The notes beneath the pieces are model-generated. The model was not told the DNA's origin. It did no database searches and was given only the letters and a program-made list of their open reading frames with translations. A stretch of 64,000 nt of DNA, taken from an uncultured Bacteroidia bacterium. Lineage in GTDB: Bacteria; Bacteroidota; Bacteroidia; Bacteroidales; UBA932. The position numbers and the translations under genes are program-made. Every line of letters begins with the position of its first letter. The stretch's first letter is position 1. Location of the stretch: NCBI GenBank assembly GCA_902782225.1, contig CACZMF010000015.1, positions 86,867 to 150,866 of the forward strand, given 5' to 3'. Shown here piece by piece: positions 30,437 through 47,561 of this stretch.

Positions 30437-30556
30437 CGGCTACGGCGTGAGCTTTAGAGGCTCCTTCGGGCTCTACTGGTGCTGCCACAGACGCCCGTCA
30501 CTGCGCCCCACACCGCCAGCGTGAGACATAACCAGCTGAACTACAGCAACATGCAT

Positions 30557-30628
30557 AAACCCGATTGCACCAAACCGCGCAATCGGGTTTTAACAACGTG
30601 CTGCTAATCAGCGCGTTACTACTCACGC
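30557..30628 (+). repeat. left copy of a 72-bp inverted two-hairpin repeat (REP-like)
   Basis: Hairpin A: AAACCCGATTGC and GCAATCGGGTTT around a ten-base loop. Hairpin B: AACGTGCTG and CAGCGCGTT around CTAAT, with one G-U pair. The reverse complement of 32763-32834 matches it at 66 of 72 positions. The repeat covers the last ten bases of the transposase gene. Hairpin A followed by TTTT may also end the glyQS transcript. Confidence 0.75.
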
Positions 30629-31542
30629 CCAATCCGTATCCTCAGGTACTTCGCCAATTGCTCCCCAGGGACGGCCATGTTTTTCAGCACCTCAAAGAAC
30701 AACTCTTCCCGTTGCGGTTCGCTCAGCTGAAATATCTGGTGAATATCCTTCAGGTTCAGCCGCTGCTTCAGGTACTGGCTGATGCGGGAGTAGTAAACAT
30801 CTGATTTTCCGGTGAATATCTCATTAAGATCATGCTCCGATCCAGTGCTGCAGTGCATGGCGTGGAGCATGTTTTCGTAAGATCCGAAGAGTGAAATAGC
30901 GTAACTGTAGTCTATGACGTTATACAGTGAGATGATATAATCCGTCATCTGGGCCCGTTCCTTTGTGTCCAGCTTGCTATAAATCCGCTTCAAAAAACCG
31001 TAGTTCAGATGACGGTTGTTGTCGTGCTCAATTTTAACCTGCTTCAGGGCCTTTCTCATCTCCCAGGAAGCGTCACGAAGCACCAGAGGCTCAGAAAAAG
31101 GATGGTCCGATTCGGCATAAGCCAGGAAATTCCACCTGTATTGTTCAGCCCTTTCGCATATCCGGCGTTCCACGGGGTTGTTGCCCAGATAAATGATATT
31201 GGTTCTTGCCGCTTTGTCCCCTATTTTTGGGACACTTCCGAAACGATGCCTGAACAACGGCGTTGTCCTGTTGCATTCTATATTATTCAAAAACGCAAAG
31301 CGGCAGGTAACTGCCTGGATGAATGACGACAGATCCTTTCTTCTTCCGGCGACCGAACTGTTGTGAATATGGTCCGGCATAAGGGTAAGCGCCACCGCTT
31401 TGATGTCGAACTTTTTGATGATTGTGCAGAACAGCGTGAAGTATACCAGGCAGTCGAATACGTTGTAAAACAACACGAAACCGAGGACGGTTCTTTGATA
31501 ACAATGGTTTAAAATCCCACGAATGACTTTACGGCTTTTCAT
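30619..31542 (-). CDS. RAYT-type transposase (Y1/REP-associated family), possibly inactive
   Basis: 307 residues. LMPDHIH (His58, His60) is the HUH metal motif of Y1 transposases, and IIYLGNNPVERRICERAEQY followed by RW is the family's conserved helix; PLFRHRF matches the block after the catalytic helix. The region where the nucleophilic tyrosine normally lies reads FIQAVTCRFAFLNN, with no Tyr, so strand transfer may be lost; the alignment is by eye. C-terminal residues 175-307 form an extra alpha-helical domain. Base composition is more AT-rich than neighbours, as expected for a mobile gene. Members of this family act on REP palindromes, and such repeats flank this gene. Confidence 0.75.
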   Translation of the reverse strand: MKSRKVIRGILNHCYQRTVLGFVLFYNVFDCLVYFTLFCTIIKKFDIKAVALTLMPDHIHNSSVAGRRKDLSSFIQAVTCRFAFLNNIECNRTTPLFRHRFGSVPKIGDKAARTNIIYLGNNPVERRICERAEQYRWNFLAYAESDHPFSEPLVLRDASWEMRKALKQVKIEHDNNRHLNYGFLKRIYSKLDTKERAQMTDYIISLYNVIDYSYAISLFGSYENMLHAMHCSTGSEHDLNEIFTGKSDVYYSRISQYLKQRLNLKDIHQIFQLSEPQREELFFEVLKNMAVPGEQLAKYLRIRIGRE

Positions 31543-31618
31543 AGTGCGAAAGTTTAAGTGAACAATAGTAGTGATTAAATTCGAAATAACAATAAAAATG
31601 CTAACTTAGTGGGTAATT

Positions 31619-32749
31619 ATGGATACAAAAAAGAATAAAGAGGCCGGCGGACGCCTCGCCAGTCTGGATGCCCTGAGGGGCTTCGACATGTTGTTCATCA
31701 TCGGCTTCGCCACGCTTCTGGGGTGGATTTGCAAGCTGTTCCCAGGGGGCGAGAACTGCTGGCTCAGCATACAGATGGGCCACGTGGCCTGGGACGGCCT
31801 GAGGCACCACGACACCATATTCCCGCTGTTCCTGTTCATCGCCGGCATATCCTTTCCCTTCTCCTACGCCAAGATGCAGGAAAAGGGCAAGACGCGCTGG
31901 CAGATATACTGGAAAATCATACGCCGCGGGCTCATCCTGTTCTTCTTCGGCCTGCTGTGCAACGGCCTGCTGAAGTTCCATTGGAGCGACATGCGCATCT
32001 GGAGCGTGCTGGCGCGCATCGGCTTGGCGTGGATGTTCGCAGCGCTGCTGTTCATCAACTTCAAGCCCTCCGTGCGTGCGGTGATCGCCGTCGTGATACT
32101 TGTCGGCTACTGGCTGCTGCTGCGGTTCGTGCCGGCTCCGGACGCGCCCGCGGGTGCCGGTCCCTTCTCCTTCGAAGGCAACCTGGTGGGTTACGTGGAC
32201 CGCTGCCTCTTCCCGGGGCACCTGTATAAGGGTGACGGCGGCGTCTTCGATCCCGAAGGCACCCTGAGCACGCTCCCCGCAATCGTCACTGCGATGCTGG
32301 GTATGTTCACCGGAGAGTGGGTGCGAAGGAAAAGCGTGAGCGAGAACAAGAAGGTGCTGTGGATGGTCACGGCGGCCGCCGTGCTGCTGGTCGTCGGCCT
32401 CGTGTGGTCGCGCTGGTTCCCGCTGAACAAGAAGCTGTGGAGCAGCACTTTCGTACTTGTGGTGGCGGCGTATTCGCTGGCGTTATTCGCTCTGTTCTAC
32501 TGGATTATTGACGTCAAGGGCTGGAAGAAATGGAGCTTTCCCCTGGCCGTGATAGGCATGAACTCCATCACCATCTACATGGCCCCGAGGATCATTGACT
32601 TCAAGTACGCCACCAACTTCTTCATCGGCGGCCTGTGCTCGTTCATGGGTCCTGTCTGGGCTAAGATCGTGTGGTATATCGGCTTCCTCGCGCTTGAGTG
32701 GCTGTTCCTTTATTTCCTCTACAAAAAGAAGATTTTCCTGCGGGTGTAG
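31619..32749 (+). CDS. DUF5009 / HGSNAT-like membrane acyltransferase
   Basis: 376 residues with about ten transmembrane helices. RLASLDALRGFDMLFIIGF at the N-terminus and the DTIFPLFLFIAGISFPFSY helix identify the DUF5009 / heparan-alpha-glucosaminide N-acetyltransferase-like family (NagX relatives). MNSITIYMA near residue 316 is the second conserved block. Such proteins are thought to move acetyl groups across the membrane to amino sugars; the acceptor is unknown. The gene lies within the inverted repeat pair, back to back with the transposase, so it may have moved with the element. Confidence 0.75.
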   Translation: MDTKKNKEAGGRLASLDALRGFDMLFIIGFATLLGWICKLFPGGENCWLSIQMGHVAWDGLRHHDTIFPLFLFIAGISFPFSYAKMQEKGKTRWQIYWKIIRRGLILFFFGLLCNGLLKFHWSDMRIWSVLARIGLAWMFAALLFINFKPSVRAVIAVVILVGYWLLLRFVPAPDAPAGAGPFSFEGNLVGYVDRCLFPGHLYKGDGGVFDPEGTLSTLPAIVTAMLGMFTGEWVRRKSVSENKKVLWMVTAAAVLLVVGLVWSRWFPLNKKLWSSTFVLVVAAYSLALFALFYWIIDVKGWKKWSFPLAVIGMNSITIYMAPRIIDFKYATNFFIGGLCSFMGPVWAKIVWYIGFLALEWLFLYFLYKKKIFLRV

Positions 32750-32762
32750 GCTGCCGGCGGCA

Positions 32763-32834
32763 GCGTGAGCGGTAACGTGCTGATTAGCAGCACGTTGTTA
32801 AAACACGATTGCTCTGTTTGGTGCAATCGGGTTT
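32763..32834 (-). repeat. right copy of the 72-bp inverted two-hairpin repeat
   Basis: Lies 13 bases after the acyltransferase stop in opposite orientation to the left copy. Hairpin B is perfect here (AACGTGCTG, ATTAG, CAGCACGTT). Hairpin A has one mismatch. The six differences from the left copy sit mostly in loops and at the edge. Confidence 0.75.
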
Positions 32835-32970
32835 GCGGATGTTATTGAGATTCGAGGAGTTATGGCTCACGGAGGAGGGATTTGAGATGAAAGCGGGCGG
32901 GCGTATATATAAAATATGCGCGTGCAGGACTATTTTTTGGCTTTTTTATAGTTTGTTCCAATAAAAATGC
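32835..32970. other. non-coding leader region before secDF
   Basis: AT-rich upstream sequence with no supported gene. It contains a GTATATATAAAATATGC stretch and leads into the secDF promoter box. Confidence 0.5.
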
Positions 32971-36153: not shown

Positions 36154-36205
36154 TAGCAACACACTGACAGATAGCGAGTTAGGGAAAACGGCCGCATTGC
36201 TGCGC

Positions 36206-36545
36206 GCGAAGACGACGGGGAGGCGTTGCGGTTGTCCTCGAGAACAGGAAACGGGGAGAACGGCAGCAAAATTGTGCGCGAAGACGATGGAGAGGCGTTG
36301 CGGTTGTCCTCGCGTGCAGGAAACGGGGAGAACGGCAGCAAAATTGTGCGCGAAGACGACGGGTAGACGTTGCGGTTGTCTTCGCGAGCAGGAAACGGGG
36401 AGAATGGCGGCAAAACTGTGCGCGAGGACGACGGAGAGGCGGCGCGGTTGTCCTCGCGTGCAGGAAACCGTGCAAATGGCCGCAAAACTGTGCGCGAAGA
36501 CGATGGAGAGGCGGCGCGGTTGTCCTCGCGGAGAGTGTGTTGCGG
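36206..36545. repeat. 72-bp tandem repeat array 1 (about 4.7 units)
   Basis: Units start at 36206, 36278, 36350, 36422 and 36494, exactly 72 bases apart; the last is cut short. Each opens with GCGAAGAC (one unit GCGAGGAC), and 20 bases later the complementary GTC(C/T)TCGC, so the first 36 bases can fold into a hairpin. The second 36 bases (GCAGGAAACGGGGAGAACGG-type) are also conserved. The period divides by three and stops are few, so several frames stay open on both strands by accident. No start signal or codon pattern supports a protein. Related to array 2. Confidence 0.85.
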
Positions 36546-36575
36546 AGAAATAGCTGAAATGGCTGGCGGGTGTTG

Positions 36576-36660
36576 CTAATGGTACAGTTGCCAGCACCAT
36601 TGGCGGCAGAAGCAGGCGTGTTTCGCGACTAATGGTACAACGGAAAGCACCATTGGCGGC
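36576..36660. repeat. two copies of a 32-bp hairpin unit with different loops
   Basis: CTAATGGTACA plus seven bases plus GCACCATTGGCGGC occurs at 36576-36607 and 36629-36660, 53 bases apart. AATGGT pairs with ACCATT in each; the bases between the arms differ between copies while the arms are identical. Confidence 0.65.
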
Positions 36661-36711
36661 AACGCGGAGAATACGCGCGAGGGCTGCAGCGCGCATTACA
36701 AATAATAATTG

Positions 36712-36719
36712 TATATTTG
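36712..36719 (+). promoter_or_regulatory. -7 box of msrA, near-leaderless
   Basis: TATATTTG with only seven bases between it and the msrA ATG; no clear -33 element. Confidence 0.5.
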
Positions 36720-36726
36720 AGCCGGT

Positions 36727-37335
36727 ATGAAGGAAATCTATTTTGCAGCGGGGTGCTTCTGGGGAGCACAGCATTTTTTTGCCGGGGTGGACGGCGTGAA
36801 GGAGGCCGTGGCGGGTTATGCCAACGGAAAGGGAGAGAATCCGTCCTATGAGCAGGTTTACACGGACACCACGGGGTTTGCCGAGACGGTGCGCGTGAGT
36901 TACGACCCGGGGAGGGTCAGCCTGAAGGAACTGACGGAACTGTATTTCACCATCATAGACCCGCTGAGCCTGAACAGGCAGGGCGGAGACGTTGGAACGC
37001 GCTACAGGACCGGTGTATATTACACGGATCCGGCGGAAAGGGCCATTATAGAGGCCGTTTTCCAGGCCGAGGAGAAGCGCGTGGGCGCGGCCCTGGCCGT
37101 CGAGCTGGAGCCGCTGCGGAACTTCTACCTGGCCGAGGAGCGTCATCAGGATTACCTTGACAAGAACCCGGGCGGATACTGCCACGTGCCTCTCAAGACC
37201 TTCCGCTACCTGCGCCTGTATCAGGACCTCAAGCTTGTCCTGGAGGGAGAGCCCGACCCCATTGCCCGCATGGCCAATACGGCCGCCATGGTCCATGAAC
37301 GCATGCACTTTTCTGGACCGGGTTCTATCGCGTGA
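36727..37335 (+). CDS. msrA: peptide-methionine (S)-S-oxide reductase, 5' part of a frameshifted MsrA-fRMsr fusion
   Basis: 202 residues. The MsrA domain (about 1-160) repairs S-form methionine sulfoxide: the active site is GCFWG (Cys10), with NPSYEQVYTDTTGFAE, GTRYRTGVYY and GGYCHV following. Residues about 165-195 (YQDLKLVLEGEPDPIARMAN) are not MsrA; they match the N-terminus of free-methionine-R-sulfoxide reductase. After HERMHF the frame slips and ends SGPGSIA. Adding one T to the TTTT run at 37309-37312 would read HFFWTGFYRVIGNEL straight into the next frame. Confidence 0.88.
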   Translation: MKEIYFAAGCFWGAQHFFAGVDGVKEAVAGYANGKGENPSYEQVYTDTTGFAETVRVSYDPGRVSLKELTELYFTIIDPLSLNRQGGDVGTRYRTGVYYTDPAERAIIEAVFQAEEKRVGAALAVELEPLRNFYLAEERHQDYLDKNPGGYCHVPLKTFRYLRLYQDLKLVLEGEPDPIARMANTAAMVHERMHFSGPGSIA

Positions 37336-37628
37336 TAGGCAACGAGCTGGTTCTGGGGCCGTTCCAGGGGCCGGAGGCGTGCTTCCGAATAGGCTATTGC
37401 AAGGGCGTGTGCGGCACCGCGTGGAAGGAAGGACGCACCGTGGTGGTACCGGACGTAGAGCTGTTCCCCGGCCACATCGCCTGCTCTTCCCTCTCCCGCA
37501 GCGAGATTGTGGTTCCCGTCCGCAAGGGCGGAGAGATCGCCGCCGTCCTGGACATCGACAGCAAGGAGCTGGCCACCTTCGACGCCACCGACGCCCTCTG
37601 GCTGGAAAAAATTGCAACGCTTTATTAA
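37332..37628 (+). pseudogene. free methionine-R-sulfoxide reductase (GAF), 3' part after the frameshift
   Basis: 98 residues in the shifted frame: NELVLGPFQGPEACFRI, GVCGTAW, VVVPDVELFPGHIACSSLSR and SEIVVPV with VLDIDS. These are the core and all three usual cysteines of fRMsr (MsrC/YebR type), which reduces free Met-R-sulfoxide. The N-terminal third of the domain is in the upstream frame. Either one base is missing in the assembly and the real product is one protein of about 300 residues, or the gene is broken. Reinitiation at the ATA/GTG near the junction is possible but would give an incomplete GAF fold. Confidence 0.75.
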
Positions 37629-37629
37629 T

Positions 37630-39687
37630 ATGGTCAATCGTATTTTAGTTTTCCTGGCCCTGATGGTGTGGGGGCCCCTGTCCGCCCGGGAGGCGGTGAC
37701 GCCGGAAGTCATTATCCCTCGCGTAGCTTCCTATACGCTTGCGGACGGCAGTTTTACGCCGGCAGTCGGCAGCACTTTCTCTGTAGAGGCAAAAGGCGCT
37801 GACGGCGCGGAAGCATTCTGCGCTTATCTGGAGAGCCTGTCCTTCGTCAAAGACGGTACGAAAAAAGCCGCCATGCGCTTCAAGGTAGGGCCGGCCGTGC
37901 TCAAAGGCAAGCCGGAGGAAGCATATGTGATGACCATCGGCAAAAAGGGCATCTCCGTGGAAGCCGCCGGGTTCGACGGAGCTTTCTACGCCGTGCAGTC
38001 GCTGCTCCAGATGCTCCACGCGTCCGAGGACGGAGCCCTCGCCGCCTGCCGTATAGAAGACAGCCCAAGGTTCCGGCACCGCGGCCTTATGCTCGACGTT
38101 TCCCGCCACTTCCAGAGCAAGGACTTCATCCTGAAGCTGTTGGACGCCATGGCGCTCATCAAGATGAACCGCTTCCACTTCCATATCACGGACAACCAGG
38201 GATGGCGCATCGCCCTGGACTGCGCCCCGGAGATGGTTCAGAAGGCGGCGTTCGGCAGCAGCAAGTTTTACAACAACATCCTGTCCAGGATGCCCATCGG
38301 ATTCTGCGACGTTCCGGAAGGGTATGTAACCGGCACCGTATATGACGACGGCCGTATCTACGGCGGCTACTATTCAAAGGAGGACATTCGGGAAATCGTG
38401 GACCACGCCGCCGCGCTGCACATCACTGTCGTTCCCGAAATTGAGCTGCCCGGCCACAACAGGGAGCTGCTCCACGTGCACCCGGAGTTCTACTGTGACG
38501 GCGAACACGTGGTGGACAACGTGTTCTGCGCCGGCAACGACGATGCCCTGCGGTTTTTCGAGCGCGTGTTGGAAGAGGTGATGGAGCTGTTCCCCTCCCA
38601 ATACATCCATATAGGCGGTGACGAGGCCGACAAGGACAACTGGGCTCACTGCTCCCGCTGCCGGGAACGGATGAAGGCCGAGGGCCTGAAAGACGAGTTC
38701 GAGCTCCAAAGCTACGTGATTCGCCGCATAGACAAGTTCGTGAGCGAGCGGGGCCGGAGGATCGTCGGTTGGGACGAAATCCTCCAGGGAGGCCTGTCGG
38801 ACAACGCCACCGTGATGTCCTGGCGCGGAACGGACGGCGGCATCAAGGCCATGGAGATGGACCACGACGTGATAATGTCCCCCAACACCTACTATTATTT
38901 CGATTACGGGCAGGACGCTCCGTACAAGGAGCCCATCGCGTTCAGGTCATATCTCCCGCTGGAGACCGTGTACAACTATGATCCGGAGGATATGGGAGGG
39001 CATCTCCTTGGCGTACAGGCCAACCTGTGGACGGAATGCGTCATCGACCCGGGGCATTGTGAGCATATGTTCTATCCCCGCGCGTACGCCGTGGCGGAAA
39101 CCGGCTGGAGCCCCGCGGGCCTCAAGGATTACGAGTCTTTCCGCCGCCGTGCGCTGGTCCTCAACAAGTGGCTGATGGAGCAGGGGTACGATTGCTTTGA
39201 CCTGGAGCACGAGGCGGGCGAGCGTCCCGAGGCCCTGAAGGAAACATTCAACCTCGCCAAGGGGTCCAAGGCGGTCCTGAAACTCGGCGACGGCCCCGCA
39301 GAAGACGCGTCGATCCTCGTGGACGGATATCTCGGAAAGTGGGACATCCACTCCGGGAAGACCTGGAAGAATGTTCGCCGCAAGGAGTTCTGCGCAGACA
39401 TCGACCTTGGATGCGAGAAGGACATCCACTACCTGGGCGCCGAATTCGTGGATTATCCAATACGCGGCTACAACGTTCCGGCCGACACGGAGTTCTACGT
39501 CTCGTCCGACGGCGTGAATTACACCCGTGTGGACGTGCCGCAGGCCAGGCTGTCCACCGGCCGCAAGCACTTCCAGATCTACACCGTAGGCTCCCCCGTC
39601 AACATCAAGGCTAGGTATATCCGGCTGATATTCAACACCGGAAGCACAAAATTCGGCTGCGGAATCAGCGAGATTCTGGTATCGTAA
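37630..39687 (+). CDS. secreted beta-N-acetylhexosaminidase (GH20)
   Basis: 685 residues from ATG MVNRILVFLALMVWGPLSAR, a signal peptide. The GH20b-like domain occupies about 25-135, then the TIM barrel (RHRGLMLDVSRHF, MNRFHFHITDNQGWR). The catalytic pair is Asp331-Glu332 in HIGGDEADKDNW. The last 120 residues form a galactose-binding-like beta sandwich. It removes terminal GlcNAc or GalNAc from host glycans or cell-wall chains in the periplasm or outside. It follows the GAF stop by one base and shares no clear theme with it. Confidence 0.9.
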   Translation: MVNRILVFLALMVWGPLSAREAVTPEVIIPRVASYTLADGSFTPAVGSTFSVEAKGADGAEAFCAYLESLSFVKDGTKKAAMRFKVGPAVLKGKPEEAYVMTIGKKGISVEAAGFDGAFYAVQSLLQMLHASEDGALAACRIEDSPRFRHRGLMLDVSRHFQSKDFILKLLDAMALIKMNRFHFHITDNQGWRIALDCAPEMVQKAAFGSSKFYNNILSRMPIGFCDVPEGYVTGTVYDDGRIYGGYYSKEDIREIVDHAAALHITVVPEIELPGHNRELLHVHPEFYCDGEHVVDNVFCAGNDDALRFFERVLEEVMELFPSQYIHIGGDEADKDNWAHCSRCRERMKAEGLKDEFELQSYVIRRIDKFVSERGRRIVGWDEILQGGLSDNATVMSWRGTDGGIKAMEMDHDVIMSPNTYYYFDYGQDAPYKEPIAFRSYLPLETVYNYDPEDMGGHLLGVQANLWTECVIDPGHCEHMFYPRAYAVAETGWSPAGLKDYESFRRRALVLNKWLMEQGYDCFDLEHEAGERPEALKETFNLAKGSKAVLKLGDGPAEDASILVDGYLGKWDIHSGKTWKNVRRKEFCADIDLGCEKDIHYLGAEFVDYPIRGYNVPADTEFYVSSDGVNYTRVDVPQARLSTGRKHFQIYTVGSPVNIKARYIRLIFNTGSTKFGCGISEILVS

Positions 39688-39700
39688 ACTTAGTTTTTCC

Positions 39701-39731
39701 ATTGCCAATTCAAAGAATATTTGTACTTTTG
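39701..39731 (+). promoter_or_regulatory. promoter of the pyrG-carAB-purF operon
   Basis: ATTG (39701-39704), 19 bases, TACTTTTG (39724-39731); pyrG starts 26 bases later. Confidence 0.6.
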
Positions 39732-39757
39732 GGCCCGGCTTAGTTTTAGTGTTTTTT

Positions 39758-41365
39758 ATGAGTTCAAGTCGGAGAATCCCCAGGTACATCTTTGTAACGG
39801 GAGGAGTTGTCTCCTCATTAGGCAAGGGGATCATTTCATCCAGCATCGGCCGCCTGCTCCAAAGTTGCGGCTACAGCGTAACCATCCAGAAATTCGACCC
39901 GTACATCAACATCGATCCGGGCACCCTCAATCCGTACGAGCACGGTGAGTGCTACGTGACGGAGGACGGTGTTGAGACGGACCTCGACCTGGGTCACTAC
40001 GAGCGCTTTACCGGCATCCGGACCACCGTGCACAATTCCGTGACCACGGGCAAGGTCTATCAGGTGGTCATAGAGAAGGAGCGCCGCGGCGACTACCTCG
40101 GAAAGACCATCCAGGTGGTGCCGCACATCACCAACGAAATCAAGGACAGGATCAAGGCGAACGCCGCCGGCGGCGAATTCGACTTCATCATCACCGAGAT
40201 CGGCGGAACCATCGGCGACATTGAGAGCGCCCCGTTCCTGGAGGCTATACGCCAGCTCCGCTGGGAGCTCGGCGGCAATGCCATCTGCATACACCTGACC
40301 TATGTCCCCTACCTCAAAGCCGCGGGCGAGCTCAAGACCAAGCCCACGCAGCACTCCGTCAAGGAGCTGCAGAGCCTCGGAATTCAGCCGGACATCCTCA
40401 TCCTGCGTACGGAAAGGCACCTGGGCAAGGAAATCCTCCAGAAGGTTGCGGCATTCTGCAACGTCGGACCAGACTGCGTGGTGCAGAGCGAGGACCTGCC
40501 GAGCATCTACGAGGTTCCGCTGAACATGCACAAGCAGGGCCTTGACAGGTCCATCCTTGCCAGGTTCGGCATGGAGAATTCCGAGGGCCACGAACAGTCC
40601 CTCCAGCAGTGGGAGGAGTTCGTACGCAAGGAAAAGGAGCTGAAATCCACCGTCAAAGTGGGTCTGGTAGGCAAATACGACCTTCAGGACGCCTACAAGA
40701 GCATACGCGAGAGCCTTCACATCGCCGGCATCCACGCAGGCAAGAAGGTGGAGATACAGTTCGTCAACAGCGAACACATAGACGCCTCCAACGTGCAGGA
40801 AATGCTGACCGGATACGACGGCATTGTGATCTGCCCCGGCTTCGGCTCCAGGGGCATAGACGGCAAGATAGAGGCCGTCCACTACGCCCGCACGCACAAT
40901 ATTCCCACCTTCGGCATCTGCCTCGGCATGCAGATGATGGTCATAGAGTTCGCCCGCAACGTGCTCGGCCTCAACGGCGCCCACAGCTCCGAAATCGACC
41001 CCGCAACGCCGTACAACGTAATAGACCTGATGGAAAGCCAGAAGGCCCTGAAGCGCCTCGGCGGCACCATGCGACTGGGCGCATACGCCTGCGACCTTCT
41101 GCCCGGCAGCAGGGTCAGGGCCATCTACGGGAAAGACACCATACGCGAACGCCACCGCCACCGCTACGAGTTCAACAACGCCTACAAGGAGCGTTACGAG
41201 CAGGCCGGCATGCGCTGCACTGGCAGGAACCCTGAGAACGACCTGGTGGAGATAGTGGAGATTCCGGACCTCAAGTGGTTCATCGGCACACAGTTCCACC
41301 CGGAGTACTCGTCCACTGTGCTTTCCCCGCACCCCCTTTTCATGGACTTTATCAATGTCTTGTAG
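39758..41365 (+). CDS. pyrG: CTP synthase
   Basis: 535 residues; the ATG of MSSSRRIPRYIFVTGGVVSSLGKG is chosen over a GTG nine bases earlier. The amidoligase domain (1-270) has the ATP loop and DPYINIDPGTLNPYEHGEC; the glutaminase domain (about 295-535) has GFGSRGIDGK, the Cys nucleophile in FGICLGMQ, and FHPEYSS. It makes CTP from UTP, glutamine and ATP. It is first of four linked genes; carA follows three bases after the stop. Confidence 0.96.
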   Translation: MSSSRRIPRYIFVTGGVVSSLGKGIISSSIGRLLQSCGYSVTIQKFDPYINIDPGTLNPYEHGECYVTEDGVETDLDLGHYERFTGIRTTVHNSVTTGKVYQVVIEKERRGDYLGKTIQVVPHITNEIKDRIKANAAGGEFDFIITEIGGTIGDIESAPFLEAIRQLRWELGGNAICIHLTYVPYLKAAGELKTKPTQHSVKELQSLGIQPDILILRTERHLGKEILQKVAAFCNVGPDCVVQSEDLPSIYEVPLNMHKQGLDRSILARFGMENSEGHEQSLQQWEEFVRKEKELKSTVKVGLVGKYDLQDAYKSIRESLHIAGIHAGKKVEIQFVNSEHIDASNVQEMLTGYDGIVICPGFGSRGIDGKIEAVHYARTHNIPTFGICLGMQMMVIEFARNVLGLNGAHSSEIDPATPYNVIDLMESQKALKRLGGTMRLGAYACDLLPGSRVRAIYGKDTIRERHRHRYEFNNAYKERYEQAGMRCTGRNPENDLVEIVEIPDLKWFIGTQFHPEYSSTVLSPHPLFMDFINVL

Positions 41366-41368
41366 ATA

Positions 41369-42448
41369 ATGGAAGACGCAAAACTGATACTGGAAGACGG
41401 GTCTGTCTTCCCCGCCAAATCCTTCGGGCACCGGAAATCCGTCTCCGGCGAGCTGGTATTCTATACCGCGATGACCGGCTACCCCGAGAGCCTGACAGAC
41501 CCCTCCTACAAGGGCCAGATCCTGGTCCCGACCTACCCTATGATAGGCAATTACGGCGTCCCGCCCCAGGACAGGGTGGACGGCGTATCCAAATACTTCG
41601 AGTCTGAAAAGATACAGTGTACCGCGCTGGTCATCTCCGATTACTCGGAACACAGCAGCCACTGGGACTCCTGCGAAAGCCTGGGAGCGTGGCTCAAGTC
41701 CGAGCAGGTCCCAGGCCTTTGCGGCGTTGACACCCGAGCCCTGACAAAGAAGCTCCGCGAGGAGGGCTCCATGCTGGGAAAGATAGTCTTCGGCGATGAG
41801 GATGTCCCCTTCTACGACCCCGACAAGGACAACCTCGTAGCGATGGTATCTTCCAGGGAAACAATGCAATACGGCACCGGAAAGTACAAGGTGCTGCTGG
41901 TGGACTGCGGCATGAAGAACAACATCCTCCGCTGCCTCCTCAAGCACGACGTAACCGTCAAGCGCGTCCCCTGGGACTACGACTTCACCAAGGAAGATTA
42001 CGACGGCCTCTTCATCTCCAACGGCCCCGGCGACCCGGTGATGTGCGAGTCAACCATCAACAACCTCCGCAAAGCCATCAAGGAAGACCGGCCCATCATG
42101 GGCATCTGCCTCGGCAACCAGCTTCTGGCACTCGCCGCCGGCGCCCGTACCTACAAACTGAAGTACGGCCACCGTTCCCACAACCAGCCGGTGAAGGTCC
42201 CAGGATCGCACCGCTGTTTCATCACCTCGCAGAACCACGGCTTCGCGATAGACGAGAGCACCCTCCCGCCGGACTGGGAACCTATGTTTACCAACCTCAA
42301 CGACGGCACCAACGAGGGCATCAGGCACATCTCCAAGCCCTTCTTCTCCACACAGTTCCATCCGGAAGCGTCCAGCGGCCCGGTAGATACCGAGTCCCTG
42401 TTCTCCGCCTTCATCGACAACATCAGGAAATACAGAAATGAGAGATAA
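41369..42448 (+). CDS. carA: carbamoyl-phosphate synthase small subunit
   Basis: 359 residues. The N-terminal domain reads LILEDGSVFPAKSFGH, with TGYPESLTDPSYKGQIL and the conserved GVDTRALTKKLRE. The C-terminal class I glutaminase has SNGPGDP, the nucleophile Cys in MGICLGNQLLALAAG, and FHPEASSGP. It releases ammonia from glutamine for CarB. Its stop overlaps carB by 11 bases, so the two subunits are coupled in translation. Confidence 0.96.
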   Translation: MEDAKLILEDGSVFPAKSFGHRKSVSGELVFYTAMTGYPESLTDPSYKGQILVPTYPMIGNYGVPPQDRVDGVSKYFESEKIQCTALVISDYSEHSSHWDSCESLGAWLKSEQVPGLCGVDTRALTKKLREEGSMLGKIVFGDEDVPFYDPDKDNLVAMVSSRETMQYGTGKYKVLLVDCGMKNNILRCLLKHDVTVKRVPWDYDFTKEDYDGLFISNGPGDPVMCESTINNLRKAIKEDRPIMGICLGNQLLALAAGARTYKLKYGHRSHNQPVKVPGSHRCFITSQNHGFAIDESTLPPDWEPMFTNLNDGTNEGIRHISKPFFSTQFHPEASSGPVDTESLFSAFIDNIRKYRNER

Positions 42449-45400
42449 CAGCATAAAAACGGTACTCCTTCTCGGCTCGGGCGCGCTCAAGATAGGCCAG
42501 TCCGGAGAGTTCGACTATTCCGGCTCCCAGGCCCTCAAGGCCCTGCGGGAAGAGGGAATAAAGACCGTCCTGGTCAACCCCAACGTGGCCACAGTACAGA
42601 CCTCCGAGGGCATCGCTGACAAGACCTACTTCCTGCCGGTGACGCCGGATTTCGTCACGAAGGTGATAGTCAAGGAACGTCCGGATGCAATAATGCTCTC
42701 CTTCGGCGGCCAGACGGCGCTCAACTGCGGCGTGGAGCTGTACAACAGCGGCGTGCTGCGCCGGTACGGCGTGAGGGTGCTCGGCACCCCCGTGGAGGCC
42801 ATCGTCAAGACTGAGGACCGAGACCTCTTCGCCCACAAGATGAAGGAGATAGGCGTGAAGACGCCGGACAGCGTGGCCGTGGAATCGGTGGAACAGGCAC
42901 TGGAGGTCGTGGGAAAGATAGGCTACCCCGTGATCGTCCGTGCGGCATACACGCTCGGTGGCCTGGGTTCCGGCTTCTGCTCCAACGATACGGAGCTCCG
43001 CGAACTCGCGGCTACCGCATTCTCGTACTCCCCGCAGATCCTCGTGGAGAAGTCTCTTAAGGGATGGAAGGAGATCGAGTATGAAGTGGTGCGCGACAAG
43101 TACGACAACTGCATCACCGTCTGCAACATGGAGAACTTCGACCCCCTCGGAATACACACCGGGGAGAGCATCGTCGTGGCCCCGTCGCAGACACTGAGCG
43201 ACCACGAGTACCACATGCTGCGGGAGACCGCCATACGCATCGTGCGCCATATGGGCATCGTGGGCGAATGCAACGTGCAGTACGCCCTGGACCCGGAATC
43301 TGACGACTACAGGGTCATCGAGGTGAACGCGCGCCTCAGCCGCTCCTCCGCCCTTGCGTCCAAGGCTACGGGCTATCCGCTGGCCTTCGTGGCCGCCAAG
43401 CTCGGCCTCGGCTACGGTCTGGACGAAATCCCCAACGCCGTGACCAAGGTGACGTCCGCCTGCTTCGAGCCGGCGCTGGACTACGTAGTCTGCAAGATCC
43501 CCCGCTGGGACCTCGGCAAGTTCGAAGGCGTCTCCAATCTGCTGGGCTCGTCCATGAAGTCCGTGGGCGAGGTCATGGCCATAGGCCGCACCTTCGAGGA
43601 GGCCATCCAGAAGGGCCTCAGGATGACGGGCAACGGGCTCCGCGGCTTCGTCTGCAACCCCATTTCCGTACCCGACGTGGAATACGAACTCGCCAACCCC
43701 TCCGACAAGCGCATCCTTGCCATAGAGCAGGCCTTCCGCGCCGGAATGACGGTTGACCAGATCCACGCCATAACGATGATAGACAAGTGGTTCCTGTACC
43801 GCCTGGAGGCCATCCACGACTTCGTACAGGAGCTCAAGGCCGTGGAGAGCGAGGACAAGCTGGACTCCGAAACCCTGCTCCGCGCAAAGCGGCTGGGCTT
43901 CTCCGACTGGCAGATAGGCAACCTCATCATGCCGGGCGCGAACATAGACACCCACGAGCGCGGCTACATGATCCGCAGGCTCCGCAAGTCACGCGGCATC
44001 CTGCCGTGCGTCAAGCAGATAGACACGCTCGCCGGCGAGTACCCCGCACTCACGAACTACCTGTACCTCACCTACTCCGGCTGCGAGAACGACATCAGCC
44101 ACGAGAAGGACGGCAAGTCCGTCATCGTGCTGGGCAGCGGCGCCTACAGGATAGGCAGCAGCGTGGAGTTCGACTGGAGCTCCGTTACGGCCGTCAAGAA
44201 GATCCAGGAGCTGGGCTACAGGGCCATAATGATCAACTACAACCCCGAGACCGTCAGCACGGACTACGACGTCTGCGACCGCCTCTACTTCGACGAGCTC
44301 TCCCTGGAGAGGGTGCTGGATATCTGCGAGATGGAACAGCCGCTGGGCGTCATTGTCTCTACCGGCGGCCAGATTCCCAACAACCTGGCAATGCCGCTGG
44401 CGCGCATGGGCGTGCGCATCCTGGGCACGTCCGCCGAGTCCATCGACATGGCGGAGGACCGCGAGAAGTTCTCCCGCCTCTGCGACTCCATCGGCGTGGA
44501 CCAGCCGCACTGGAAGGAGCTGGACAGCATCGAGGACATATATTCCTTTGCTGACGAGGTTGGCCTCCCCATCATGATACGCCCGTCGTACGTCCTTTCC
44601 GGCGCCGCCATGAAGGTGGTCACGAGCCGCGAGGAGCTGCGCGACGCCCTCACCAACGCCGCCGTCGTGAGCCCGGAGCACCCTGTCGTGGCCACGGAGT
44701 TCATCTCCAGGGCCAAGGAGGTGGAGATCGACGCCGTGGCGCAGCGGGGCCAGATAAAGTGCTACGCCATCAGCGAGCACGTGGAGTTCGCCGGCGTCCA
44801 TTCGGGAGACGCAACCGTGGTCTTCCCCGCCCAGAAACTCTATTACGAGACCATACGCCGCATCAAGCGCATCTCCTCAAAGATAGCGGCGGCGCTGAAC
44901 ATTTCAGGCCCCTTCAACATCCAGTTCCTCGCCCGCGACAACTCGCTGCGCGTGATTGAATGCAACCTGCGTGCGTCCAGGAGCTTCCCCTTCGTGTCCA
45001 AGATCACCAAGTTCAACTTCATCGGCATGGCGACCGAGATCATGCTGGGGAAGGACGTGGAGCCGTACGGCAAGTCGTTCGCGGACATCGACTACGTGGG
45101 CGTGAAGTGCTCGCAGTTCTCTTTCGCCCGTCTGCTGCATGCGGACCCCATACTCGGCGTTGACATGGCCTCCACCGGCGAGGTCGCATGCATCGGCGAC
45201 AACTACTACGAGGCCCTGCTGAAGGGCATGCTGTCCGTCGGATACACCATTCCGCCGAGGGACAAGGGCGTCCTGATTTCGTCCGGTCCCGCCCAGTCCA
45301 AGGCCGAGCTGCTCGAGGCGACCCGCCTGCTGACGGACCACGGATACACCATCTACGCCACCTCCGGAACGGCCACATACCTGCAGCAGAACGGCATAGA

Positions 45401-45665
45401 CGCGTTCGTGCTGCACTGGCCGGACTCCGACAAGAAGCCCAACGTGGACACGTACCTGCGGGAGCGGAAGATCGGCCTCGTCATCAACATCCCCAAGAAC
45501 TACAGTACCCGCGAGCTGGCGAACGGCTTTGCCATCCGCAGGACGGCCATAGACTTCAACATACCGCTTATCACGAACGCCCGCCTGGCGAGCGCCTTCA
45601 TCAAAGCGCTGTGCGAAATCGGCACGGAAGGCCTTGCGGTGCGCGCCTGGAACGACTATCAGTAG
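42438..45665 (+). CDS. carB: carbamoyl-phosphate synthase large subunit
   Basis: 1075 residues. Two duplicated ATP-grasp halves: the first with GSGALKIGQSGEFDYSG and AYTLGGLGSGF, the second from about 560 with LGSGAYRIGSSVEFDWSS and RPSYVLSGAAMKVV. A final MGS-like regulatory domain (from about 930, LLTDHGYTIYATSGTATYL) normally binds allosteric effectors. It forms carbamoyl phosphate from bicarbonate, ammonia and two ATP for pyrimidine and arginine synthesis. It sits one base before purF. Confidence 0.96.
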   Translation: MRDNSIKTVLLLGSGALKIGQSGEFDYSGSQALKALREEGIKTVLVNPNVATVQTSEGIADKTYFLPVTPDFVTKVIVKERPDAIMLSFGGQTALNCGVELYNSGVLRRYGVRVLGTPVEAIVKTEDRDLFAHKMKEIGVKTPDSVAVESVEQALEVVGKIGYPVIVRAAYTLGGLGSGFCSNDTELRELAATAFSYSPQILVEKSLKGWKEIEYEVVRDKYDNCITVCNMENFDPLGIHTGESIVVAPSQTLSDHEYHMLRETAIRIVRHMGIVGECNVQYALDPESDDYRVIEVNARLSRSSALASKATGYPLAFVAAKLGLGYGLDEIPNAVTKVTSACFEPALDYVVCKIPRWDLGKFEGVSNLLGSSMKSVGEVMAIGRTFEEAIQKGLRMTGNGLRGFVCNPISVPDVEYELANPSDKRILAIEQAFRAGMTVDQIHAITMIDKWFLYRLEAIHDFVQELKAVESEDKLDSETLLRAKRLGFSDWQIGNLIMPGANIDTHERGYMIRRLRKSRGILPCVKQIDTLAGEYPALTNYLYLTYSGCENDISHEKDGKSVIVLGSGAYRIGSSVEFDWSSVTAVKKIQELGYRAIMINYNPETVSTDYDVCDRLYFDELSLERVLDICEMEQPLGVIVSTGGQIPNNLAMPLARMGVRILGTSAESIDMAEDREKFSRLCDSIGVDQPHWKELDSIEDIYSFADEVGLPIMIRPSYVLSGAAMKVVTSREELRDALTNAAVVSPEHPVVATEFISRAKEVEIDAVAQRGQIKCYAISEHVEFAGVHSGDATVVFPAQKLYYETIRRIKRISSKIAAALNISGPFNIQFLARDNSLRVIECNLRASRSFPFVSKITKFNFIGMATEIMLGKDVEPYGKSFADIDYVGVKCSQFSFARLLHADPILGVDMASTGEVACIGDNYYEALLKGMLSVGYTIPPRDKGVLISSGPAQSKAELLEATRLLTDHGYTIYATSGTATYLQQNGIDAFVLHWPDSDKKPNVDTYLRERKIGLVINIPKNYSTRELANGFAIRRTAIDFNIPLITNARLASAFIKALCEIGTEGLAVRAWNDYQ

Positions 45666-45666
45666 C

Positions 45667-47043
45667 ATGTTTTCATCGATACACGAGGAGTGCGGAGTGT
45701 TCGGCGTCTTTGGCGTCGAAGGGGCCGCCGGTATCGTGCGGACAGGGCTTGCATACCTGCAGCACCGCGGGCAGGAGGGATGCGGCATCGCATGGTCCGG
45801 CAGGGACTGGAGCGTGCGCCTGCAGAAGGGCCTGGGGCTGATTTCCGAGGTCTTCGGCGGCGGCGTGCCGGACGGCGGCGACAGCGTCTGCGCCATCGGC
45901 CACGTGCGCTACGGGACCTCCGGCGGCGGCGAGGTGGAGAACGTGCAGCCGTTCGTTTTCCGGCGGCGCTTCGGCGACTACGCCACCGCGCACAACGGCA
46001 ACATCGTGAACGCCGGCGAGCTGGCGAACGCCCTCTCCACACGCGGCTCGCTGCTGCATTCTTCGTCCGACAGCGAGGTGTTCGGGGCCCTGTTCGGCGA
46101 GTGCCGGGGCGGGGCGCTTTCGTCCCGGCTGCTCGGGCCCGTGCTGAACCAGATAGACGGCGCCTTTTCGCTCCTCGTCCTCACCCGCGACGCCATGTTC
46201 GCCTGCCGCGACAAGTACGGCCTGCGGCCGCTGTCCGTCGGACGGCTGGGGAACGGGTACGTGGCCGGCAGCGAGACGTGCGCGCTGTACGCCGTGGGGG
46301 CGCGGGACGTGCGGGACGTGCGGCCGGGCGAGATCGTGCGCATCTCCGCGGGCGGAATGGAGAGCACGCAGTACTCGTCGTTCACGCAGAATGCGATGTG
46401 CGCCATGGAGTACATCTACTTCGCGCGCCCGGACAGCGACATCGAGGGCATCAACGTGCACGCGTTCCGCAAGGAGTGCGGGCGTGCGCTTTTCCGGGAG
46501 AGCCCGTGCGGCGCGGACATGGTCATCGGCGTCCCGGATTCGGGGCTCAGCGGGGCCATGGGTTATTCCGAGGCGGCCGGCATCCCCCTCGAGCAGGGGC
46601 TGATCAAGAACGCCTACGTCGCGCGCACCTTCATCCAGCCGACGCAGGAAATGCGCATGAACGGAGTCAGGATGAAGCTTTCGCCCGTTGGGTCGCTGAT
46701 CAAGGGCAAGCGGGTGGTGGTGATCGACGATTCCATCGTGCGCGGCACCACGTCGCGCCAGCTGGTCCGCATGCTGCGGGACGCCGGCGCTGCGGAGATC
46801 CACATGCGCATCACCAGCCCGCCGCTCAGGTACCCCTGCTTCTACGGGGTTGACATCTCCTCCCGCAACGAGCTTATCTCCGCGCACCGCAGCACGGAGG
46901 AGGTCTGCCGCTTCATCGGCGCCGACTCCCTCGCCTTCATCTCCGAGGACGGCCTCCTGCAGGCCGGCCGCCGCAGCGGCCTCTGCCTCGCCTGCTTCTC
47001 CGGCAAATACCCCACCGACCTCTACTCCCACGAGCTGGAGTAA
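45667..47043 (+). CDS. purF: amidophosphoribosyltransferase
   Basis: 458 residues. The start is set by the pattern MFSSIHEECGVFGV, where the Cys after a short propeptide becomes the N-terminal nucleophile in homologs. The glutaminase domain has GHVRYGTSGGG and AHNGNI; the PRPP site is VVVIDDSIVRGTTSRQLVRM. It starts purine synthesis by making phosphoribosylamine. Two late cysteines (YPCFYGVDI, LCLACFSG) fit the Fe-S ligands of Bacillus-type enzymes. It is the only purine gene in this otherwise pyrimidine operon. Confidence 0.94.
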   Translation: MFSSIHEECGVFGVFGVEGAAGIVRTGLAYLQHRGQEGCGIAWSGRDWSVRLQKGLGLISEVFGGGVPDGGDSVCAIGHVRYGTSGGGEVENVQPFVFRRRFGDYATAHNGNIVNAGELANALSTRGSLLHSSSDSEVFGALFGECRGGALSSRLLGPVLNQIDGAFSLLVLTRDAMFACRDKYGLRPLSVGRLGNGYVAGSETCALYAVGARDVRDVRPGEIVRISAGGMESTQYSSFTQNAMCAMEYIYFARPDSDIEGINVHAFRKECGRALFRESPCGADMVIGVPDSGLSGAMGYSEAAGIPLEQGLIKNAYVARTFIQPTQEMRMNGVRMKLSPVGSLIKGKRVVVIDDSIVRGTTSRQLVRMLRDAGAAEIHMRITSPPLRYPCFYGVDISSRNELISAHRSTEEVCRFIGADSLAFISEDGLLQAGRRSGLCLACFSGKYPTDLYSHELE

Positions 47044-47081
47044 AGGGCGCGCGTTGCGAAAAACGCCGGCAAACCCGCTGT

Positions 47082-47105
47082 CATTCTGAGCGAAGCGAAG
47101 AATCT
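47082..47105. repeat. copy of a dispersed motif ATTCTGAGCGAAGCGAAGAA
   Basis: The string around ATTCTGAGCGAAGCGAAGAA, ending ATCTC, is recognised from intergenic regions of many bacterial genomes, usually in hairpins or repeat debris. Here it stands directly before array 2, and its GCGAAG overlaps in sequence with the start of each 72-bp unit. Confidence 0.5.
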
Positions 47106-47112
47106 CTTATTC

Positions 47113-47458
47113 GCGAAGACGATGCGGAGGCCCGTTCGTTGTCTTCGCGCGCAGAAAACAGGGCAAACGGCCGCGAATCCGTTTGCGAAGACGATGCGGA
47201 GGCCCGTTCGTTGTCTTCGCGCGCAGAAAACAGGGCAAACGGCCGCGAATCCGTTCGCGAAGACGATGCGGAAGCCCGCTCGTTGTCCTCGCACGCAGAA
47301 TACAGGACAAACGGCCGCGAATCCGTTCGCGAAGACGATGCGGAGGCCCGTTCGTTGTCTTCGAGCGCAGAATACAGGACAAACGGCCGCGAATCCGTTC
47401 GCGAAGACGATGCGGAGGCCCGTTCATTGTCTTCGAGCGCAGAATACAGGGCAAACGG
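47113..47458. repeat. 72-bp tandem repeat array 2 (about 4.8 units)
   Basis: Units start at 47113, 47185, 47257, 47329 and 47401, again exactly 72 bases. The first 36 bases are GCGAAGAC, a 20-base middle, then GTCTTCGC or a near variant; the second 36 bases carry GCAGAAAACAGGGCAAACGG. Internal identity is high. Length, palindromic core and the order of blocks match array 1, although the sequences have drifted. Frames are open on both strands for the same trivial reason. The array lies between purF and an AT-rich orphan gene. Confidence 0.85.
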
Positions 47459-47561
47459 CGGCCTTGCAATTGCAAATCTATACAAAACCGACTATCTTTA
47501 CGGAGCTTACTGGAGATTCAACGGCAACTACTGGGACAAAAACGCAAACAATAATAAGGTG

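Follow-up and report, generated by a model that had tools for sequence, protein, structure and literature searches.

Two tandem arrays with the same 72-bp period and clearly different sequences lie in separate intergenic regions of one bacterial contig, which raises the question of what kind of element they are made of and what multiplies it. The DNA studied comes from an uncultured Bacteroidia bacterium (assembly GCA_902782225.1, contig CACZMF010000015.1). The window, as we call the whole 64,000-nucleotide stretch that was analysed, corresponds to C15:86867-150866 of the genome G000 (2.58 Mb, 34 contigs, 92% complete). Very probably, each array is a BIME-like tract built from a REP-type element, with a ~40-bp imperfect palindrome and then a ~32-bp linker per unit, and the partner of this element is a RAYT-like Y1 transposase of a distinct ~320-aa group.

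Tandem Repeats Finder placed array 1 at 36182-36530 (period 72, 4.8 copies, 87% matches) and array 2 at 47110-47459 (period 72, 4.9 copies, 94% matches). A covariance model of the 72-bp unit, R1, recovered five units in each array, all on the plus strand and at 72-bp spacing (Table 1). Both arrays are intergenic and located behind the 3' ends of same-strand genes. Judging from our own reading of the open reading frames, array 1 lies between what we take to be SecDF-like and MsrA-like genes, and array 2 behind a presumably PurF-like gene. Mean unit identity was 0.806 within array 1 and 0.903 within array 2, compared with 0.66 between the two arrays. These results bear out an earlier, sequence-only reading, which had described head-to-tail 72-bp arrays of about five intergenic units, with units closer to each other within an array than between arrays. 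The same reading had split the unit into two halves of 36 bases, but the 36-bp rows of Tandem Repeats Finder match at only 51-57%, and the unit divides into palindrome and linker instead. The GCGAAGAC...GTCTTCGC core proposed for both arrays is present mainly in array 2, whereas array 1 mostly has GTCCTCG.

Table 1. Window coordinates of the two arrays and of example parts of their units.
Feature	Position	Strand	Description
Array 1	36203..36553	+	five 72-bp units; unit 5 stops shortly past palindrome
Array 2	47110..47469	+	five 72-bp units; repeat similarity until about 47459
Example palindrome, array 1 unit 2	36277..36314	+	model positions 3-40; weak ssDNA fold, z -1.2 / -1.3
Example palindrome, array 2 unit 1	47112..47149	+	model positions 3-40; good ssDNA fold on both strands, z -3.3 / -3.2
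Linker, array 2 unit 1	47150..47181	+	three short A-tracts, ~10 bp spacing

A CRISPR array was ruled out, as the linkers recur together with the palindromes and there are no differing spacers. Several frames are open across the arrays because 72 is divisible by three; they were taken as spurious and a coding repeat was rejected.

A pattern search with the palindrome hit units in both arrays and, at two sites elsewhere, four more; the reversed control matched none. Stem cells pair in 93.1% of cases, against at most 64.8% when slid. All units of an array share one orientation, and no inverted pair forms the unit. Within the family the arms are kept as sequence, wobbles included (columns 13/52 are G-T in 92 of 108 cells), which implies that the two strands are unequal. 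Folded as single-stranded DNA, the array 2 palindrome is good and the array 1 palindrome weak (Table 1); for a palindrome on contig C25, one strand folds better than the other (z -2.3 vs -0.4). The linkers in the window have A-tracts about 10 bp apart.

Such hairpins could also act in RNA, if the units were a structured RNA or terminator family transcribed behind genes. The location of both arrays past 3' ends of same-strand genes and the good folds in array 2 agree with this, and REPs elsewhere can act in mRNA, as described in PMC3733652. However, one tRNA was the sole Rfam match over the window at gathering score, and stem covariation within the family did not rise above shuffles, even with 110 distinct rows. 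Furthermore, the element is sporadic, with R1 matches at E <= 1e-4 in 7 of 300 genomes of the genus, and 11 regions that follow the gene 5' of array 1 in congeners, among them one that stops ~200 nt past this gene, gave no R1 match at E <= 1. RNA elements, one of the options raised from the sequence, are thus a very improbable explanation.

The REP-type element is found well beyond the two arrays, as expected for the family of structured intergenic repeats that the sequence-only reading had suspected and for which it had proposed a genome-wide covariance search. With R1, 22 units were detected in G000 at 10 sites, six of them single units; both window arrays were placed as intergenic, and the remaining sites were judged from ORF maps. 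In the correct orientation, the units found on other contigs can be aligned to both arrays across the full 72 bp. Among 61 genomes, four (G000, G004, G011 and G027), all from one genus, had R1 matches at E <= 0.01. In the fetched stretches, and after removal of opposite-strand duplicates, G004 has 55 units at 15 sites and G011 25 units at 13 sites. Several 72-bp arrays sit at contig ends in these assemblies. An assembly artefact without other genomic copies is unlikely, because the same family is present in other genomes of the genus. In the search for an empty site, none of the matches listed from outside G000 spans both flanks. Among the papers listed in open-literature searches, none deals with the 72-bp element. 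Within the scope of these searches it was right to call this element undescribed, but its kind is known, namely that of REP/BIME elements with a RAYT transposase.

Tandem arrays may also arise as plain minisatellites, that is, from chance intergenic sequences grown by slippage or unequal recombination without a transposase. Identity across the family has the corresponding pattern, with 0.805 for unit pairs from one array (119 pairs) and 0.698 for pairs from different arrays of the same genome (1615 pairs), and some local growth of arrays probably occurs whichever reading holds. As the whole explanation, though, minisatellites are very unlikely: homologous full units occur at all ten separate G000 sites, single units included, and repeats of unrelated sequence with the same step lie beside related transposase genes.

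The candidate partner of the REP-type element is encoded directly next to it in two congeners. This gene encodes 327 or 325 aa, and the array begins 8 nt (locus L078, G011) and 6 nt (L076, G004) past its stop codon; both loci also have inverted element copies ~2 kb upstream of the gene. At a third locus (L127, by its length of 56,516 bp the same contig as G137:C45; 62% identical), R1 gives weaker hits, located ~15 nt past the aligned gene and, in inverted orientation, ~1.8 kb upstream. A transposase gene flanked by its own palindrome, a REPtron, is clear in G011 and G004, and weak in G137. Searches for the protein covered the 61-genome set and the seven R1-positive genomes of the genus. Six of these seven have a protein with at least 51% identity to P0001, the G011 protein (P0002 is that of G004), and G129, with one weak element, has no such protein at E <= 1e-8. 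Among the 61 genomes, exactly the four R1-positive ones have such a protein, be it complete or fragmented, and the other congeners have relatives at 34-44% identity or less. The 61-genome search gave no sign of the transposase gene as a high-copy mobile unit.

The predicted nature of this protein is suggested by motifs and fold; sequence profiles are weak. H50, H52 and Y107 are invariant in all 19 members, and in alignment A3 of the proteins the Y-motif Y[VIT][LI][RK][NQ] is followed by a conserved HH. Neither P0001 nor P0002 had a Pfam match. The Y1_Tnp profile matched 4 of the 19 members (best E 1.2e-4), and the NCBIfam profile REP_Tyr_transpos matched 10 (best E 1.8e-10), with P0002 far below the cut-off. 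When the PDB was searched with a structure model of the transposase (mean pLDDT 89.5), the top match, at E 3.5e-5, was 4er8, a complex of the E. coli RAYT with a REP hairpin; transposases of the IS200/IS605 type came next. We regard the probable partner as a RAYT-like Y1 enzyme of the HUH/tyrosine kind, in a ~320-aa group of its own.

In G011 and G004 the transposase is adjoined by D1, an HTH protein with Myb-like and sigma-region-4-like HTH matches, and in G000:C29 D1 adjoins the transposase remnant. In L130, L133 and L132 (the last, by its length of 39,369 bp, the same contig as G299:C47), the transposase gene is directly preceded by a second small gene, D2. Between D1/D2 and the transposase, G011 and G004 have a serpin-type lipoprotein gene, which the inverted arrays enclose (L078 2985-4208 and L076 3417-4643; Pfam Serpin match of the L078 copy, E 1.3e-99). 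The proximity of D1 to the transposase at these loci, G000:C29 included, together with the conserved arms and the phased A-tracts, could point to an array of sites for a host DNA-binding protein, for example D1 itself. Yet, within the stretches fetched for the best 80 of 223 relatives, D1 was found in just 6 loci (D2 in 5), and different loci have unrelated palindromes. This explanation is very improbable, and binding by a host protein may come in addition to the main explanation instead of replacing it. Of the binding sites suggested from the sequence, only a reading as hairpins for a REP-type transposase fits.

Another RAYT-like gene is located in the window itself (30619-31542, minus strand; REP_Tyr_transpos E 1.2e-6). 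It was rejected as the partner, since its flanks carry another inverted repeat: this gene, of a different group, and a neighbour gene lie at 30513-32878 between inverted repeats of 116 nt, which are 80% complementary and have their own palindrome. No R1 match at E <= 0.01 was found at any of the six Y1_Tnp genes found, with the flanks read directly for three of them (L022, L025 and L026). At L022 (G000:C24), a further RAYT-like gene (1380-2349) has its own palindrome, TGCCTGCA...TGCAGGCA, on both sides. Other short repeats occur around the arrays. Two palindromes of another kind (AATGGT...ACCATT; 36571-36665) adjoin array 1, which also has one part of a TTAGCAACAC/GTGTTGCTAA pair on each side. 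Immediately before array 2, at 47080-47105, lies GTCATTCTGAGCGAAGCGAAGAATCT, a single copy in the window; sequences resembling it adjoin elements or genes in L016, L019 and L217. On two contigs, 22-bp tandem repeats of the form TTGGCGCAGGT..CCCACT.TCT are found near the element (L007 1121-1197 and L008 1265-1364).

In G000 the cognate gene is present as a decayed remnant. Contig C29 encodes homologues of D1 (81% identity) and D2 (74%), the small genes found upstream of the G011 transposase, with one element upstream of D1. Behind them are fragments matching residues 1-8 and 45-60 of P0001; the rest of P0001 was not found there, nor was an intact cognate transposase gene found in this 92% complete genome. 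A more distant, intact relative (C16:6742-7698, 51%) has a different palindrome, of which two units precede the gene and three follow it, with a step of ~72. A pattern search of G000 for this second palindrome family gave six palindromes on C1, C11 and C16 (control 0), those on C1 forming a 73-bp array of 3.5 copies. The G000 copies of the 72-bp element are probably relics, unless the C16 relative acts on them in trans.

The wider collection holds many relatives at 50-62% identity, mostly beside other palindromes. Across the loci of the best 80 of 223 relatives, R1 matched at E < 1e-3 only in L125, L126, L127 and L150. A repeat step of 71-74 or 82-83 was present in at least one flank of 70 of these 80 loci; L125 is among the other ten because its array runs into the contig end. 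A tandem repeat search of L244 gave 23-bp repeats only. The best lag fell into these bins, which were set after seeing the data, for 48 of the 78 flanks upstream and 55 of the 79 downstream, compared with 70 of 717 more distant segments. At a score cut-off of 23 out of 36, likewise set afterwards, flank lags were 71 (3 flanks), 72 (41), 73 (20), 74 (2), 81 (2), 82 (7), 83 (5) and 84 (1), with none at 75-80 and twelve further flanks at ten other lags. The control segments peak at 72 too (39/717 in the first lag scan, 15/642 with the score cut), probably due to coding periodicity. In the protein tree of the 80, the longer step arises in separate places, some labels being doubtful (L141, L166 and L185; sound by eye are L148, L167, L182, L184, L193, L194 and L199).

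Paired palindromes were readable in 33 loci, from which 51 pairs, several of them poor, were read out. Their similarity was 0.30 for protein pairs with at least 70% identity (8 pairs), and below 70% identity the means were 0.173-0.198 vs 0.16 for shuffled palindromes. Palindrome and protein similarity were not significantly related across the 33 loci (rho 0.045; 228 of 999 permutations as high). The palindromes read out at related loci are mostly unrelated in sequence. Linker A-tract distances were at 8-11 or 18-20 in 26 of 34 cases, where shuffles predict about a third, again with bins set after seeing the data.

The near-constant helical spacing is the surprising part of the system. The step of ~7 or 8 helical turns and the phased A-tracts suggest that palindrome pairs are handled together, perhaps as duplex. 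Tentatively, and with more doubt than confidence, we propose that this RAYT group measures DNA: the palindromes of a pair would share one helix face at a distance of ~7 or 8 turns, phased A-tracts would bend the linker, and the true substrate would be a two-hairpin unit, in contrast to previously described REPs. Spacing rather than sequence would then be the conserved signal, as the step is kept while the palindromes diverge beyond recognition. The jump between the shorter and the longer step would also be explicable by gain or loss of one ~10-bp linker motif.

For the multiplication of the element, a mechanism can be sketched from the known systems (background from PMC6006769, PMC3733652 and PMC8266576). 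In this literature, TnpA-REP binds single-stranded REP hairpins and makes its cut close to the foot, and it may mobilise REPs as non-autonomous elements. By analogy, the enzyme considered here would bind the palindrome hairpin in single-stranded DNA and cut near its foot. The palindrome-plus-linker would be the moving unit, joined at new sites or beside existing copies. Joining beside existing palindromes would result in head-to-tail 72-bp arrays, the units of which could then be homogenised within one array by slippage or local recombination. This would account for a class of 72-bp arrays. How REPs multiply is a long-open question, and here dozens of natural transposase-palindrome pairs with nearly fixed geometry are available. 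Since some genomes combine many repeats with an intact gene (G004, G011), while the gene has decayed in another (G000), it becomes possible to test specificity, spacing and what happens to the repeats once the enzyme is lost.

The closest parallel is the E. coli REP/BIME-RAYT (TnpA-REP) system, which shares intergenic multi-copy imperfect palindromes, tandem tracts, a transposase gene flanked by its own palindrome, and the RAYT-like enzyme fold predicted here. Unlike in that system, GT[AG]G was found within 6 nt of the foot in none of the 33 loci (background 0.04, ~1.3 expected by chance), so that the element is not a classical GTAG REP. In contrast to E. coli BIMEs, the units are head to tail, not alternating, with a near-constant step of 72-73 or 82-83 bp, and in contrast to a REPIN, made of two inverted REPs, all units within an array have one orientation. 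IS200/IS605 insertion sequences share the enzyme core fold, the transposases of IS608 and ISDra2 ranking behind 4er8 in the structure search, but here palindromes are present at many places without the gene, which was not seen moving as a high-copy unit. Bertels group 5 is said to be TnpA-Y1 subclass 2.6, from Bacteroidetes. The sections of PMC6006769 on subclass 2.6 describe the same phylum, and atypical flanking structures without GT[AG]G that have copies elsewhere in the genome; by that description, the enzymes here are set apart by their ~320 aa and other Y-motif (there a median of 179 aa, NH[LIV]H and YIH[QN]NP). Subclass 2.3 is similar in length, with a median of 325 aa and a large distal domain, but it is characterised by NHYH and YVDLNP, belongs to gammaproteobacterial orders, and has no REP reported in the sections describing it (PMC6006769). 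Subclass 2.2 enzymes, given there as 165 aa, are about half as long. Compared by eye, and with alignment A3, the length and HuH/W/Y motifs match no row of subclasses 1.1-3 in Table 1 of PMC6006769. The system works like REP/BIME-RAYT, and its enzyme group is, by length and motif as judged by eye, outside the published subclasses.
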